A stretch of DNA of 37,380 nucleotides from a virus. Both the position numbers and the translations under genes were made by a program. The stretch spans positions 1 through 37,380 of IMG/VR virus record IMGVR_UViG_3300037573_000133. One strand, 5' to 3'. Positions 25,629-33,759 of the stretch are shown here, piece after piece (the stretch's first letter is position 1; every line of letters starts with the position of its first letter). Under the pieces are notes generated by a model. That model made no database searches and had not been told where the DNA came from. It saw only the letters and a program-made list of their open reading frames with translations.

Positions 25629-26282
25629 TTATTTTTTTGGGTCGCTTGCTGTAATAAATTCGTGTAAAGCGTCTACTTCAGTTTGTAAATTTCCTAACTT
25701 GTCATTGTTTGTAAGTACATGGTCAAAATTGTAACCTATCCAATTCCATTCAGTTATATGTACACCTTTATATCGTGTGTTCATCAAGTGTTGTGATGGT
25801 ACATGACCATTATTGGCTTGGGTAGCTGTTTCATACCAGTCTGGCTTCTCGCCACGTTCAACGTTGATTACTACTCCGCCTAACCGTTTAATTAAGTCTA
25901 GCTCATTTATAAATCTAGTATCGCTAATAATAACACAAGGATGGTTTGGTTGTGTACTACGCATTCTATATTCTAAACTATCTATCCATATGTTTTCATG
26001 GAAATGATTACGCATTACTTCGGTACCCATAAGTTGTAGTGCTAGTCTAGGTGTAAAATTGTCTATTCCAAGTTTTCGTGTCCAAAACATATCAGGCGTT
26101 TCTCTAAAGTCTCTACTATCAACAGTATCACCTTCTAGGTCTGCTCTCTCCCATCCGAATATAGAAGCACACACATCTTTAAGTGGTGATGCAAAACTAT
26201 CTCGCACACAACCTCTATTAACAAAAAAGTTTGTAACGGTATCTTTGCCTGATCCTATTAGTCCTGTAATCCCAATTATCAT
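25629..26282 (-). CDS. 1: Deoxynucleoside monophosphate kinase (gp1-like)
   Basis: 217 residues (T4 gp1 is 241). IIGITGLIGSGKDT at residues 2-15 is the P-loop, then DSFASPLKDVCASIFGW, TPRLALQLMGTEVMR and IISDTRFINELDLIKRLGGVVINVER match the dNMP-kinase family. It phosphorylates dNMPs, including those made by ThyX, to dNDPs. Its ATG overlaps the upstream oxygenase-like gene as ATGA. It is unusual in lying between tail genes and accessory enzymes. Confidence 0.88.
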   Translation of the reverse strand: MIIGITGLIGSGKDTVTNFFVNRGCVRDSFASPLKDVCASIFGWERADLEGDTVDSRDFRETPDMFWTRKLGIDNFTPRLALQLMGTEVMRNHFHENIWIDSLEYRMRSTQPNHPCVIISDTRFINELDLIKRLGGVVINVERGEKPDWYETATQANNGHVPSQHLMNTRYKGVHITEWNWIGYNFDHVLTNNDKLGNLQTEVDALHEFITASDPKK

Positions 26283-27136
26283 TTTATAAACTCGTTATCC
26301 ATAATCAGTTTCTTAATATCAGCGAACGAGTAATCTGGGTCAAAACTTATTGATCCCATATTTCTATCTTCGGTTTCCATGTTAATAATTCTATGCCACT
26401 GATTAGTTCTTATTAATGTAGGTACTGGCATTCCATAATACTCGTCTACTTTAGTAAGTAACTCATCGTGGTTATCGTATACAATACTATGTCCTGCTTT
26501 AATTCTTACACCTTCGCCACTGTCATGTGTAATGTATAGTATATCAGTAATTTCTTTAGTGTCTTGGTCATGATCCTCGGCTCCTTGGCGTGTCATATAT
26601 TGTGAACGTAATTTTATATGACTTTCTATCATCGCTTGTGGTTGGTTCTGTCCTATACTATCCATTATATTTTTATATCCCTCTATTAACAGTTCGCTAA
26701 CTTTGTCATTTCCCTCTGCCCATTCAATTTTACTTTTAGATAAGTCTGCATTATCAACTGGGTAATTAAGTGCAACTGACCTTCTTGTAACTCTGACCAC
26801 TTCTTTATAATTACCTTTTGCATGTTCTGTGTTTTCCATTCCTTCGTTATGCCACTCGTACGCTCCATTTGCTGGTGTATGTAAAATTATAACGTCATGT
26901 ACCGGGATTGTCAACTTATTTTGGAGGTCTTTTATTATTTTATTTATAACACCTGTTTTCCAAAGATATATGAAACCCATCCTATGTTGAGTTATAAACA
27001 AATCATTATTACCATTTCGATTGAACTCGTTGACATCTCCAGTGAAACGTTCGATGCTACGAGCGAAGCAATCTTTAACAAATGTAAAGATTGGATCTAG
27101 TTCCGAGGTTGGTAATTGGCAATGGTGGTCACTCAT
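26279..27136 (-). CDS. Putative 2OG/Fe(II)-type oxygenase-like protein, paralogue B
   Basis: 285 residues. Residues 94-99 (EWHNEG) give His-x-Glu (H96, E98). RRSVALNYPVDNAD (119-131) matches the strand that follows the first metal ligand in aspartyl/asparaginyl hydroxylase-like phage proteins. WHRIINMETEDRNMGSISF (247-265) gives the distal His (H248) and an Arg (R258) that would bind 2-oxoglutarate. It uses Glu instead of the common Asp, and a 70-residue insert lies between the halves. It is a tandem duplicate of the next gene upstream. The substrate is unknown. Confidence 0.55.
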   Translation of the reverse strand: MSDHHCQLPTSELDPIFTFVKDCFARSIERFTGDVNEFNRNGNNDLFITQHRMGFIYLWKTGVINKIIKDLQNKLTIPVHDVIILHTPANGAYEWHNEGMENTEHAKGNYKEVVRVTRRSVALNYPVDNADLSKSKIEWAEGNDKVSELLIEGYKNIMDSIGQNQPQAMIESHIKLRSQYMTRQGAEDHDQDTKEITDILYITHDSGEGVRIKAGHSIVYDNHDELLTKVDEYYGMPVPTLIRTNQWHRIINMETEDRNMGSISFDPDYSFADIKKLIMDNEFIK

Positions 27137-28020
27137 TTTATAAACTCGTTATTCATAATTAATGTTTTAATATCGGAGTAAGAATACGTTGGATCAAAAC
27201 TTATTGATCCCATATTTCTATCTTCCTCGACATGAGCATTAATAATTCTATGCCACTGATTAGTTCTTATTAATGTAGGTACAGGCATTCCATAATACTC
27301 GTCTACTTTAGTAAGTAACTCATCGTAGTTATCGTATACAATACTGAGTATCGAGCTAATTCTTATGCCTTCACCACTATCATGTGACCTATGTAGTATA
27401 TCAGCAATTTCTTTGGGGCCTAGTTCCGGTGCCTCGAATGACTTGGTTCGTTGCATCTGCCCTATATGAAGTGTCTTATTTTGTGAACGTAAGTTTATAT
27501 GATCGTCTGTGTAGTTCTGTGAACTGTTGATTTCGACACTATTCATTATATTACTATATCCGTCGATTAACAATTCTGTGGCTTTGTCACTAGGTGTCGC
27601 CCATTCAAGTTTACTTTTAGATAAGTCTGCATTATCAAGTGGGTAATTAAGGCCCACTGACCTTCTTGCACTAACCACTTGTCGGAATTGCTCTGTTGCA
27701 TGTTCAGTATGTTCCATTCCTTCGAGATGCCACGGATATGATCCATGTGCTGGTGTTTGTAAAATAATAAAGTCGTGTACCGGGATTGTCACCTTCTGTT
27801 GAAGGTCTCTAATCATCTTATTTATAACACCTGTTTTCCACACATATATGTGACCCAGCTCAGATCTATTGAGTGCAATAAAGAAATCGTTATTACCGTT
27901 TCGATTGAACTCGTTGACATCTCCGGTAAAACGTTCGTTGCTACGAAGAAAACAATCTTTGGCAAACTTAAAAATTGGGGCTAGTTCAGTGGAAGGTAAT
28001 TGAATGTGGTGGTCGCTCAT
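27133..28020 (-). CDS. Putative 2OG/Fe(II)-type oxygenase-like protein, paralogue A
   Basis: 295 residues, nearly co-linear with paralogue B: both begin MSDHH-QLP and share FTGDVNEFNRNGNND, the GLNYP/ALNYP strand and the ending TNQWHRIIN...DRNMGSISFDP. The metal ligands are H98 and E100 (WHLEG) and the distal His. The main difference is a variable insert around residues 160-205. GGAGG precedes the ATG, and the two copies overlap by ATGA. Gene duplication with divergence of the insert suggests two substrates or a heterodimer. Confidence 0.55.
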   Translation of the reverse strand: MSDHHIQLPSTELAPIFKFAKDCFLRSNERFTGDVNEFNRNGNNDFFIALNRSELGHIYVWKTGVINKMIRDLQQKVTIPVHDFIILQTPAHGSYPWHLEGMEHTEHATEQFRQVVSARRSVGLNYPLDNADLSKSKLEWATPSDKATELLIDGYSNIMNSVEINSSQNYTDDHINLRSQNKTLHIGQMQRTKSFEAPELGPKEIADILHRSHDSGEGIRISSILSIVYDNYDELLTKVDEYYGMPVPTLIRTNQWHRIINAHVEEDRNMGSISFDPTYSYSDIKTLIMNNEFIK

Positions 28021-30316: not shown

Positions 30317-30739
30317 CTAAAGTTTCTTGGCTGTGAGCCCAATCGTGGCACTTGCACACACTTTATCGTTTTTCCAGACCTCACAAGAGTAGAAAATATG
30401 GTCTCGTCGGCGTTTGATAAGTTTGGCTGTGAGTATTAATTGGTCTTCGGGAAAGACTGGAGTTCTAAATTTTGCTCTATCTACACTAGTAACAAAAGTA
30501 ACATATCCACTGTGTCCGGCATCTGAAATTCTGTCTTTTGCTAAATGTAATGCATGTAATCCGGCACATTGAAGCATGCCTTCAATAAGATATACTCCGG
30601 GCCATATTTTAATGTGGGGGAAGTGTCCTTCTAGGACCGGATGGTCTGCTTGGATAGTATATATTGCAACGATATTTTCGTCATCTAATACATTATGCGA
30701 GTCTATTAATGCTATTGGGTGTCTGTGTGGAAGTTCCAT
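30317..30739 (-). CDS. fabZ: FabZ-like 3-hydroxyacyl-ACP dehydratase
   Basis: 140 residues, the usual FabZ size. HRHPIALID near the N-terminus, then GHFPHIKIWPGVYLIEGMLQCAG (residues 38-60) with catalytic His39 and Glu53 of the hot-dog dehydratase. In bacteria FabZ removes water from 3-hydroxyacyl-ACP in fatty-acid elongation. The usual MPG is WPG here. The ATG lies 5 nt after a late-type GTTAAATA, and 12 bp past the radical SAM stop. It might act on host ACP or be repurposed for lipid-A or other acyl intermediates. Confidence 0.85.
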   Translation of the reverse strand: MELPHRHPIALIDSHNVLDDENIVAIYTIQADHPVLEGHFPHIKIWPGVYLIEGMLQCAGLHALHLAKDRISDAGHSGYVTFVTSVDRAKFRTPVFPEDQLILTAKLIKRRRDHIFYSCEVWKNDKVCASATIGLTAKKL

Positions 30740-30744
30740 ACCAG

Positions 30745-30752
30745 TATTTAAC
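30745..30752 (-). promoter_or_regulatory. Late-like promoter GTTAAATA, 5 nt before fabZ ATG
   Basis: One base differs from the ATAAATA core (TTAAATA). Spacing to the ATG is the same 5 nt as in other late promoters. Confidence 0.45.
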
Positions 30753-32689
30753 TATTCCTTAGCGTAATGGCTGTGATTTTCCGTAAATAATTTGTAAAAG
30801 TAATCATTTACCTTGCAGTACTCTTTGAAATTAAATACGAAGTTATTTTGGTCGTTATAATCTTCGCCTTTTGCTGAAAATCTTTCATCATGATGTGGTA
30901 ATCCGTGTGCAACAAACAACGGACTTGATATATGCTGACCAGACTCTTGAAGTCTGCCGTGAAACTTCATAGCATACTTCATAGTGTCGTAAAATGTTAA
31001 GCCATTTCTGTTTTTCCAAGATATAGTACTTTCCATTAATTTGCCTTGAGAAGTGCTTTTTGGTATCTCTTCACCGTTGTTATCAAACTCTGTGAACACA
31101 TACCCGTGGTCTTTCCAGTTTTTACTGAATTCACTTACACTAAGTTCAGTATAATAGTGAGCCTTGTCGTCAATTCGTCTAATGTATAACGGATTCATGT
31201 TAATAGTGTGCAAGGGATTGTCTTTTGACAGTAAATACTTGGCCATCTTCTTAAGAGCCTTTTTATCGTCACTTGGTAAGCCGGCGATAAAGCCACTCAT
31301 TAATGTCATACCCTTCCAATAGCCGTCTGCTAACTCTCTTAAATATGCAAATTGTATATCAGGGTGCAATCCTTTACCAATGTCTTTAGCACATTCTGGA
31401 TCAGTCGTTTCAATACCTAAATTTGTTAATCGACAACCACTTTCAGCAATTAATTGTGCTTGTGGTGGATTATGTTTACGGTTAATGTACACTAGATCCA
31501 ATCTAATGTATGAACTCCACTTTAATTTGAAGGGCAATGTTTGTGTCATGGCATGCCAGTCAATCATTTTTTTATGGTCGTCATTAAATGTGTCATCTGT
31601 TAGCCAATAATCTTCAATACCATACTTTTCGTAATTATATATTAGCTCTTCTCTAATATAACTAAAGTCTCGTAATGCTTCGCCCTTACCTTTTCCGTTT
31701 AATGGAAAAGAACAAAAATTACATTTAAATATGCAACCTCTAGCAACCTCTAACGGTAATATTTCTCCATTCTGAACATTATCTTCTGGTCGCCATACTT
31801 GAGTTGAGTGTTTTATGTCTAATTTGCTTTCGCCATCAGCTGTTACCATTACATTATGTTTATTTGTAGGCAAATGGTCTGCTTTTCCGCCATCTTTAAG
31901 ATGTTGTAGTATTTGTGGCAATGTTACATCACCGAATCCTAGATTCACATAATCCATTAAGCCGTTATCGTCTGGTCTGGAATAGTTTGCTGTGGTATTA
32001 GCACCACCCGTAATGTATTTTACGTTGGGATTTATATCGTGTATATACTTGCCTAATATCTCATCACCTTTTTTACCAGTTGAAAAGAAATGTCTGCGAG
32101 TATTGTTGAAGTTTGTTACCCATTCTGTTTTTTCATCTGCAGTAAACCCTTCAAAAGGATCAAAGTTTGATATTGAAGGTCGTTGCATTAATAATTGGAA
32201 ACTTCTAAATGTACTACTTACACCTAACATTAATGTTTCTTTTCCAACAAATTTATCTATTACACGTTTTGTTGTCTCAATATCTAGATGGAACAGGTTG
32301 TCTATAACTTGAACTGTAAAACCATGCTCTCGGCATTCGTGTGCTAATTTATATGCACCCATCGCTCTACTAGTATTAAAATTTATCTGATCATATCTGC
32401 CATCTTTCCATCTATCTACATCGTTAATTCTTCGAGTAGCTGTGTCAGTGTCTTTTGGTATATTTGATTGTTTTATACCTTTATGATCTGTTGTAGTTTC
32501 AGCCATCGACCCCATGGTCACACTATTTCCCCAACCGGGTGAATCAGTAAACAAAAGAAATTGTACTGGCGTAGGTGTTACTTTGATGTTCTTAAATGGA
32601 TTGTAGCGTTGGGAACCGTGTCCGACACGTTGGTTGTGAAATTCGTTGTATGCCTCAAGAGTAAATTCAGAGTATTTAGTTATTGCCAT
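30752..32689 (-). CDS. Radical SAM enzyme with N-terminal Rossmann-like domain
   Basis: 645 residues from the ATG at 32689. Residues 319-326 hold the radical SAM cluster motif C-x3-C-x2-C (GCIFKCNFCSF), preceded by LPLEVARG. ADGESKL..., LTDDTF and LGIETTDPE fit the following SAM-barrel strands. The N-terminal 270 residues include a Rossmann-like region as in B12-binding radical SAM proteins, but I do not see the DxHxxG cobalamin signature. The substrate is unknown. The reductase upstream could supply electrons to reduce the Fe-S cluster. A late element ends 5 nt before this ATG; a TTG at 32704, overlapping the reductase stop as TTGA, is an alternative start. Confidence 0.85.
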   Translation of the reverse strand: MAITKYSEFTLEAYNEFHNQRVGHGSQRYNPFKNIKVTPTPVQFLLFTDSPGWGNSVTMGSMAETTTDHKGIKQSNIPKDTDTATRRINDVDRWKDGRYDQINFNTSRAMGAYKLAHECREHGFTVQVIDNLFHLDIETTKRVIDKFVGKETLMLGVSSTFRSFQLLMQRPSISNFDPFEGFTADEKTEWVTNFNNTRRHFFSTGKKGDEILGKYIHDINPNVKYITGGANTTANYSRPDDNGLMDYVNLGFGDVTLPQILQHLKDGGKADHLPTNKHNVMVTADGESKLDIKHSTQVWRPEDNVQNGEILPLEVARGCIFKCNFCSFPLNGKGKGEALRDFSYIREELIYNYEKYGIEDYWLTDDTFNDDHKKMIDWHAMTQTLPFKLKWSSYIRLDLVYINRKHNPPQAQLIAESGCRLTNLGIETTDPECAKDIGKGLHPDIQFAYLRELADGYWKGMTLMSGFIAGLPSDDKKALKKMAKYLLSKDNPLHTINMNPLYIRRIDDKAHYYTELSVSEFSKNWKDHGYVFTEFDNNGEEIPKSTSQGKLMESTISWKNRNGLTFYDTMKYAMKFHGRLQESGQHISSPLFVAHGLPHHDERFSAKGEDYNDQNNFVFNFKEYCKVNDYFYKLFTENHSHYAKE

Positions 32690-32694
32690 ACCTG

Positions 32695-32702
32695 TATTTA
32701 TC
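32695..32702 (-). promoter_or_regulatory. Late promoter GATAAATA, 5 nt before the radical SAM ATG
   Basis: Minus-strand GATAAATA, then CAGGT, then ATG at 32689. It overlaps the end of the reductase gene. Confidence 0.65.
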
Positions 32703-33426
32703 AATCCACAAAGGCACGTTCTAGAATAAAGTCGCCAGGTTCTCCTGCATTGCCTTCTTGGAAATCATGTTCTTCAAAAAAATCTCTGCACTGGTAGTTC
32801 ATCTCTGGTCCACCGCACACCATAACTCTATCAGTTGCTTTATTAAATCCGCCATCTGTAAAATTATCTATATGGTCCCAAAAGCGTCCTGAACGTACAT
32901 AGTCTTCTTGCGTACATGTATCGTAATATGTAATTGGATGTAGTTCTACTAATTCTTTTATTAGGTCAGTATAAGTATGATCTGAATGTGTTCGCGTAGT
33001 GTGTACTAATACAACATTTTCAAATTTATCGTATGTATCAGGGTCTCTAATTATACTTAAAAACGGTGCAATTCCTGTACCAGTTGCAAGTAAAATTAAA
33101 TTCTTCGCCGTAGTAACGTTGTTAATAGTCAGTGTGCCTGTTGTTTTAGGCATTACTACTATTTCGTCTCCAACTTTTAAATGCTGTAGACGACTTGTAA
33201 GAGGTCCGTACGGTACCTTAATACTGAGGAACTCTAACTCGTCTTCATAGTTTACACTTACCATACTATATGCTCTTAGTAAAGGACGTGATCCTTCCTC
33301 TTCTCCTTTTAATCCAATCATAGTAAACTCACCATTTGTAAAACGGAAAGTTTGATTTCGAGTTGTTTTAAAACTAAATGTGTTATCTGTCCAATGATGG
33401 ACCCATGTTACTGTTTCTATATTCAA
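32701..33426 (-). CDS. Ferredoxin/flavodoxin-NADP+ reductase-like protein
   Basis: 241 residues, about bacterial Fpr length. RAYSMVS at about residues 51-57 is the FAD-binding motif, GPLTSRLQHLKVGDEI follows, and LLATGTGIAPFLSI plus MVCGGPEM give the NADP-binding side. The start is probably the TTG at 33426, overlapping the upstream stop as TTGA with AGGG upstream. The predicted reaction is NADPH oxidation with electron transfer to a ferredoxin or flavodoxin; the radical SAM enzyme just downstream is an obvious consumer. Confidence 0.88.
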   Translation of the reverse strand: MNIETVTWVHHWTDNTFSFKTTRNQTFRFTNGEFTMIGLKGEEEGSRPLLRAYSMVSVNYEDELEFLSIKVPYGPLTSRLQHLKVGDEIVVMPKTTGTLTINNVTTAKNLILLATGTGIAPFLSIIRDPDTYDKFENVVLVHTTRTHSDHTYTDLIKELVELHPITYYDTCTQEDYVRSGRFWDHIDNFTDGGFNKATDRVMVCGGPEMNYQCRDFFEEHDFQEGNAGEPGDFILERAFVD

Positions 33427-33674
33427 TGCTTAGTCGCCCTAAATGATTCTATCATTGCTTTACGGATTATCGGGTCCTTCAGCTTTTCTAGATATTCATG
33501 ATTTAAAATGTAGTTTTCGTCTTGCTCTAGTTGTGTCAGTAAGGATAAATCATCGACACCTAACATAGTACATACATCTTCGAACGATAATATATCAATG
33601 CCATGTTCTCTAGCATCTAACAACAATTCTAGTATTAAATTTGTAATCGTATTTTCTAGTTTATCGTCATTCAT
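33423..33674 (-). CDS. Small acidic hypothetical protein heading the reductase operon
   Basis: 83 residues, acidic, helical. Residues 26-44 (IDILSFEDVCTMLGVDDLS) resemble a helix-turn-helix-like or helical-bundle pattern, without clear assignment. It begins 9 nt after the encoded CCA of tRNA-Ala, and its AGGA ribosome-binding site overlaps the tRNA 3' end. Its stop overlaps the reductase start. Confidence 0.6.
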   Translation of the reverse strand: MNDDKLENTITNLILELLLDAREHGIDILSFEDVCTMLGVDDLSLLTQLEQDENYILNHEYLEKLKDPIIRKAMIESFRATKH

Positions 33675-33683
33675 TTTAAATCC

Positions 33684-33759
33684 TGGTGGAGCTGATAGGA
33701 ATCGAACCTACGACCTATTCCGTGCAAGGGAATCGCTCTCCCTACTGAGCTACAGCCCC
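33684..33759 (-). tRNA. tRNA-Ala (anticodon TGC)
   Basis: 76 nt with encoded CCA. The acceptor stem has the G3:U70 wobble pair that identifies alanine tRNA; the discriminator base is A. The anticodon loop is CTTGCAC. A weak terminator hairpin from the gene upstream ends just before it. Confidence 0.93.

Follow-up and report, generated by a model that had tools for sequence, protein, structure and literature searches.

A conserved reductase, radical SAM and FabZ-like gene cassette in T4-superfamily jumbo phages, a candidate module for acyl-chain tailoring

Introduction

What would a flavoprotein reductase, a radical S-adenosylmethionine (SAM) enzyme and a fatty-acid-type dehydratase do together in the genome of a phage? 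The question is raised by the virus record IMGVR_UViG_3300037573_000133 of IMG/VR, whose 37,380 bases (36% G+C) were analysed at full length and are called the window here. An original prediction, made from the letters of this DNA, described an accessory operon of tRNA-Ala, a small protein, an NADP+ reductase, a radical SAM enzyme (rSAM) and FabZ, and proposed that it modifies a lipid, acyl chain or envelope component late in infection. Here, we show that the reductase (FNR), rSAM and FabZ genes form a cassette that is kept in the same order in most carriers. We give about an even chance to the reading that a lineage of T4-superfamily jumbo phages expresses this cassette late in infection to tailor acyl chains or lipids.

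All five predicted elements are present, on the minus strand, as judged from open reading frames (ORFs), ARAGORN and Pfam:

30317-30739, minus strand: FabZ-like 3-hydroxyacyl-ACP (acyl carrier protein) dehydratase of the hot-dog fold family, 140 aa (Pfam, FabZ structure 3d6x, catalytic residues)
30745-30752, minus strand: late-promoter-like GTTAAATA, degenerate, before fabZ (sequence comparison; weak)
30752-32704 (from TTG; likelier from the ATG at 32689), minus strand: rSAM protein, 646-650 aa, with an N-terminal cobalamin-binding-like Rossmann domain (Pfam, AlphaFold, Foldseek)
32695-32702, minus strand: GATAAATA, a T4-type late promoter motif that precedes the rSAM ATG by 5 nt (position shared by most relatives)
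32701-33426, minus strand: ferredoxin/flavodoxin-NADP+ reductase (FNR) of the proteobacterial Fpr type, 241 aa (PDB 6rr3, NCBIfam, motifs)
33423-33674, minus strand: small protein, 83 aa, translationally coupled to the FNR gene (ORF)
33684-33759, minus strand: tRNA-Ala (TGC), upstream neighbour, probably outside the enzyme cassette (ARAGORN)

As predicted, the genes overlap or nearly touch: the small ORF shares 4 bases with the FNR gene, the FNR gene ends right where rSAM starts, and 12 bases separate rSAM from fabZ. The tRNA-Ala gene also lies upstream of the cassette in the relatives L001, L002 and L005. Because it is found there in many relatives and not in all, we regard it as a neighbour and not as a member of the cassette.

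Conservation of the Cassette

Contigs were gathered by IMG/VR scans with rSAM, FabZ and FNR alignments. The phage-type FNR was found in 51 contigs (29 distinct FNR sequences), and architectures were counted over the 41 contigs in which the region downstream of FNR is uncut. The order FNR-rSAM-FabZ occurs in 26 of these; seven have FNR-rSAM-rSAM-FabZ, two have FNR-rSAM-rSAM-rSAM-FabZ, and six have FNR-FabZ. FabZ lies downstream of FNR in all 41 contigs, and one to three rSAM genes stand between them in 35, so the grouping is not due to chance. The synteny is strict, and the concern that homologues of the three genes might never co-occur is firmly dismissed. In nearly all contigs the cassette is flanked by a tRNA and small-gene region on one side and by phrog_11903 and neck genes on the other.

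The pairwise identities of FNR, rSAM, FabZ and the neck protein correlate (Mantel r 0.44-0.82). The ratio of nonsynonymous to synonymous substitution rates (dN/dS) of the cassette genes is ~0.1 in most comparisons and 0.08-0.23 in all but one; the exception, rSAM against L001 (0.43), was obtained at very low divergence. The neck-protein control gave 0.03-0.04. These ratios indicate that purifying selection acts on the cassette genes. Since the identities track each other and the dN/dS values are of this kind, we conclude that the cassette is old and has been kept vertically in the lineage, with no recent pick-up.

In the INPHARED phages, no rSAM relative was detected by tblastn, and the FNR and FabZ matches were mostly to host-like contigs at <60% identity. 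The first profile search of genome contigs also gave no rSAM relative, and a broader alignment returned only relatives at ~31% identity or less. The window terminase is nearest to those of jumbo myoviruses (PA5oct group 58%, Atu_ph07 54%, Phosso 51%). Nearly all window genes lie on the minus strand, including those that we take, from sequence, to be gp32-, UvsX-, sheath- and neck-like. The carriers of the cassette are a lineage of large marine T4-like phages of bacteria, and the cassette sits among their structural genes.

Late Promoters and the Start of the rSAM Gene

A comparison of upstream regions revealed that GATAAATA is kept 5 nt ahead of the rSAM ATG across relatives. Because most of them have an ATAAATA element within a few nucleotides ahead of this ATG, rSAM probably starts at ATG 32689 and not at TTG 32704. 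In the window, NATAAATA is enriched before gene starts (6 of 40 versus ~0.9% of random positions, p ~2e-6), and TATAAATA-like elements of the T4 late type thus occur just upstream of late genes more often than by chance. When TATAAATA was counted across the entire window with one mismatch allowed, it was not more frequent than expected by chance, and the significance is limited to where the motif stands with respect to gene starts. The only such motif of the window ahead of fabZ is the degenerate GTTAAATAC, and some relatives carry ATAAATAC at this place; the degenerate motif makes the fabZ promoter weak evidence. Of the two late promoters that had been predicted, the one before rSAM is backed by the conserved motif and the gene-start enrichment, and the one before fabZ has the degenerate motif. 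The motif data support the late expression that had been proposed.

The Radical SAM Protein

The rSAM protein matched the Pfam model Radical_SAM (PF04055) at 1.8e-11 (44.9 bits, cutoff 29.5). Its CX3CX2C motif (C324/C328/C331, numbered from TTG) is invariant in 51 sequences, as would be expected, together with the radical SAM core, of a class B rSAM enzyme. A GG pair is kept in the aligned N-terminal domains. The AlphaFold model (pLDDT, the predicted local distance difference test score, of 87) was matched by Foldseek to TsrM, OxsB, AprD4, CysS and TokK. The B12-binding model PF02310 scored 13.2 bits against a cutoff of 32.1, while the fold agrees with TsrM, OxsB, CysS and TokK; AprD4 shares that fold and is not known to bind B12. 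For CysS and TokK, there are PDB entries with pantetheinylated substrates. As judged from the predicted structure, the phage protein is folded like the cobalamin-dependent rSAM enzymes, and it falls outside every named family.

Across the rSAM members, the best NCBIfam matches are the ladderane lipid B12/rSAM, PhpK and HpnJ models, and no cutoff was reached. The ladderane model TIGR04072 ('lipid biosynthesis B12-binding/rSAM') matched the window protein at 4.6e-14 (51.9 bits, equivalog cutoff 360) and is the best match for L005, L030, L036 and L045 (1e-17 to 3e-23; 82 bits for the top relative). A subfamily with a known, unrelated substrate would have spoken against an acyl-chain role, and none of the named subfamilies is matched above its cutoff.

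The cassette rSAMs group in the tree with a paralogue from a second locus, in a single clade (support 100/99) that splits deeply into two subclades; the L025 cassette carries one rSAM from each. The second-locus paralogue is single-copy and lies elsewhere in the structural region of the L028/L037 contig, L034, L036, L038 and L039.

A weak match to the PADLOC candidate PDC-M51A (2.8e-4; 1.7e-14 for L045) would suit a role in anti-defence or superinfection that has nothing to do with lipids. This match is mostly on the radical SAM core and may be superfamily likeness only. In addition, FNR, FabZ and the small protein have no above-noise match to known defence or anti-defence families, and we consider such a role highly improbable.

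The Reductase, the Dehydratase and the Small Protein

A PDB search aligned FNR over its full length (residues 2-241) with the Fpr structure 6rr3 (1.5e-70). Pfam NAD_binding_1 (1.4e-11) and NCBIfam (3.3e-36) also gave matches, and the RAYS FAD motif (RxYS) and the GTGxAPF nucleotide (NADP) motif are invariant. The full-length match and the two motifs place the enzyme in the Fpr family, and by the PDB search it is nearer the Azotobacter/Pseudomonas type than the E. coli type; the curated cutoff of NF008178 is not reached (124.8 versus 390 bits).

The dehydratase has the hot-dog domain of the FabA-like family (PF07977, 1.7e-19; 70.2 bits, cutoff 23). The catalytic residues H39 (GHFP) and E53 (PGVxxxEGxxQ) are invariant in 14 homologues, and the best structure match is the ordinary FabZ 3d6x (3.3e-24 with a profile). 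As its score lies below the equivalog cutoff of TIGR01750 (94 versus 155 bits), the protein is named FabZ-like, without claim to the equivalog.

In roughly half of the core loci, a homologue of the 83-aa protein is encoded directly upstream of FNR. Its AlphaFold model is of mixed alpha/beta type (pLDDT 87) and has no significant PDB match, with weak winged-helix-like matches at E>=1. We rejected an acyl carrier protein as its identity: D41 and D42 are invariant but S44, where a carrier protein would keep the phosphopantetheine serine of its DSL motif, is replaced by T or G, no Pfam match was found, and the model is not a four-helix fold.

Lipid Genes beside the Wider rSAM Family

Among 26 viral loci of the wider rSAM family, 9 have a desaturase gene as a direct neighbour, at a distance within 100 bp in 7 cases; none of 24 control loci with FNR only has one (Fisher p=0.0012, an approximate value, as the contigs are not fully independent). 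The loci with desaturases are scattered over the rSAM tree, so the link has arisen or persisted repeatedly. One locus, L045, holds rSAM, ketosynthase, ACP, FabZ, AcpS, a second ACP, a short-chain dehydrogenase/reductase (SDR), three desaturases and IscA and IscU/NifU-like genes in 17 kb. Neither FabZ nor ketosynthase generally accompanies the wider family: among 20 records they occur only in L045, so the link is to desaturases. The 340-kb phage contig G001 contains FNR-FabZ without an adjacent rSAM, a terminase, FabF, ACP and three desaturases. It also encodes at least 11 radical SAM domains, most in one array; within this array (L196:4503-14249), we observed a desaturase, with a nucleotide-sugar dehydrogenase, a methyltransferase and a carbamoyltransferase-like gene alongside. 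These neighbours of relatives (desaturases, ACP, ketosynthase and AcpS) and the FabF, ACP and desaturases of G001 speak for the predicted lipid or acyl-chain role.

Bacterial rSAMs of ~30% identity were found beside two desaturases and an ACP (L222, Bdellovibrionales) and after a gene like those of nonribosomal peptide synthetases (NRPS), with a carrier domain (L216). Another of ~30% identity lies in a phage-like stretch of the Halomonas sulfidaeris chromosome (L220). The L216 locus, and islands of rSAMs, SDRs, 2-oxoglutarate (2OG)-type and PP-loop enzymes in jumbo relatives, would fit a cassette feeding a carrier-protein-built, natural-product-like phage small molecule, for example one inhibiting rival phages or the host. 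However, no NRPS or polyketide synthase, transporter or resistance gene was seen beside the cassette, which is embedded among neck and tail genes, and this explanation is quite improbable.

Proposed Function

The scheme below starts from observed gene content, fixed order, co-inheritance, selection, the late motif, folds and the genomic association of the rSAM family with genes for desaturases, ACP, ketosynthase and FabZ; we infer the later mechanistic steps. FNR would take electrons from NADPH and reduce a host flavodoxin or ferredoxin, and the carrier would pass them to the [4Fe-4S] cluster of rSAM and possibly also to its cobalamin. The rSAM enzyme might then methylate an acyl chain at carbon, rearrange it or close a ring in it, perhaps while the chain is bound to a carrier protein. 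FabZ, to judge from its family and its catalytic residues, would dehydrate the 3-hydroxyacyl-ACP of the same chain, drawing on the type II fatty-acid synthase of the host. The product would alter membrane or envelope lipids of the host, or be a lipid for virion release or superinfection control. A bolder version holds that the virus runs cobalamin/rSAM lipid chemistry of its own, in which the phage FNR would power tandem rSAMs and these, together with FabZ, would make a C-methylated, cyclised or ladderane-like acyl chain that the host lacks before infection; rSAM copy number would differ because the phages make different lipids. We think this version unlikely.

Several observations weigh against a lipid-tailoring module. 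The six contigs that keep FNR and FabZ adjacent without an rSAM between them mean that FabZ need not act with rSAM, which is thus the variable slot of the cassette. No phage-encoded Fer2 ferredoxin was found in the 15 records searched, so a host electron carrier would be needed. The best NCBIfam match of the window rSAM is PhpK (TIGR04479, a P-methyltransferase; 69.8 versus 600 bits), with no lipid model on top. The desaturase link concerns distant relatives (~30% identity) outside the cassette rSAM clade, and ACP, ketosynthase and desaturase were not found in the rSAM-bearing cassette contigs searched (fragments, up to 110 kb). The 47-kb L045 record gave no terminase match, so its viral origin rests on IMG/VR.

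Part of this would suit another explanation, in which FNR and FabZ boost host redox and fatty-acid flux as a pair and rSAM is an independent late enzyme, inserted between them, that acts on a virion protein, peptide, sugar or nucleoside. Besides the six rSAM-free pairs and the PhpK match, it draws on a slot that varies in copy number (0-3) and clade, on matches of the window protein to methylase models of ribosomally synthesized and post-translationally modified peptides, and on some wider-family members whose neighbours are SPASM rSAMs, beta-hydroxylases and PP-loop enzymes. However, an rSAM in the cassette always stands between FNR and FabZ, and the wider family is repeatedly beside desaturases, at one locus with ACP, ketosynthase and FabZ. 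We therefore regard this explanation as rather unlikely. Desaturases use flavodoxin- or ferredoxin-type electron carriers, and the rSAM-free pairs could serve desaturases in G001-type phages, within the same lipid theme.

For the tailoring module, then, co-occurrence, late expression and a lipid or acyl role gained support; a flow of electrons from FNR to rSAM is no more than plausible, given the missing Fer2 and the six rSAM-free contigs.

Other Genes around the Cassette

About 5 kb upstream of FNR, 63 of 116 core loci encode a protein of family c10 with CHASE2 and class III nucleotide cyclase domains (L137:1770-3635; PF05226 5.9e-35, PF00211 3e-19), which is Pycsar-cyclase-like in PADLOC. 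A membrane sensor cyclase encoded by a phage looks unusual. In the window, two tandem paralogues of family c8 (189 ORFs in 82 loci) occupy 26279-28020; one was tested and had no Pfam match. Relatives carry 1-5 copies after the neck gene, and the WHxEG motif of the family suggests Fe(II)/2OG-oxygenase-like proteins. The closest relative has a 431-aa protein of family c32 without a Pfam match between the tRNA and the small protein (L001:4426-5721). A protein with a curlin repeat (L129:261-1163; PF07012 2.6e-4) is found in relatives; for pelagimyophages, the available text of PMC7029224 reports CsgF/CsgG and states that CsgA/CsgB are missing.

Comparison with Known Systems

The ladderane clusters of anammox bacteria pair B12-type rSAMs with fatty-acid synthase genes (PMC2649909, PMC13142503); in Kuenenia, the B12-binding rSAM Kuste2803 occurs with FabF and FabZ paralogues (PMC2649909). 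The cassette resembles them in having a cobalamin-type rSAM alongside FabZ/FabF/ACP-type genes, and the phage family has TIGR04072 among its best-matching models. It differs in the scores of the phage rSAMs (52-82 versus 360 bits), in host and genome setting, in the lack of ketosynthase, ACP and methyltransferase in the window, and in a FabZ closest to the ordinary enzyme. With CysS, TokK, TsrM and OxsB, the phage rSAM shares the modelled overall domain architecture (Foldseek 1e-14 to 1e-9) and CX3CX2C, but identity is 10-16% and the B12-binding Pfam model gives 13 bits. It is far below the PhpK cutoff, and phosphinate pathway genes were not seen nearby. FNR is homologous to the proteobacterial Fpr enzymes 6rr3 and 1a8p over the full length, with both motifs, whereas the phage clade is ~71-97% identical to the window FNR and the best INPHARED matches are <50% identical.

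Marine phages are known to carry genes for fatty-acid synthesis and desaturation. As given in the available text of the sources, these include cyanophage lipid desaturases (Roitman 2018, via PMC8224337), a roseo-prophage fabG-acpP-fabF set (PMC8224337), marine viral fabG/fabF/fabZ (PMC10653327), and pelagimyophage fabF and stearoyl-CoA desaturase, with radical SAM genes also reported (PMC7029224). The same texts and PMC7678222 describe phage lipid genes singly or as fab sets, and in the available text none mentions a fixed cassette that joins FabZ to FNR and a cobalamin-type rSAM. The open-licence literature, searched for phages that combine radical SAM with FabZ or FNR, gave no description of the cassette.

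Phage lipid genes have so far been mostly single desaturases or fab genes. A fixed, late and selected set of a reductase, tandem cobalamin-type radical enzymes and a fatty-acid synthase dehydratase would, if our reading is true, mean that viruses remodel host acyl chains by radical chemistry. The cassette offers a compact, expressible system for probing the activity of an orphan B12-type rSAM clade and a lead on rSAM-FabZ cooperation in lipid pathways. Its parts are of known kinds and its setting is phage lipid metabolism; the point of interest is the rSAM clade, which stands outside the named families.

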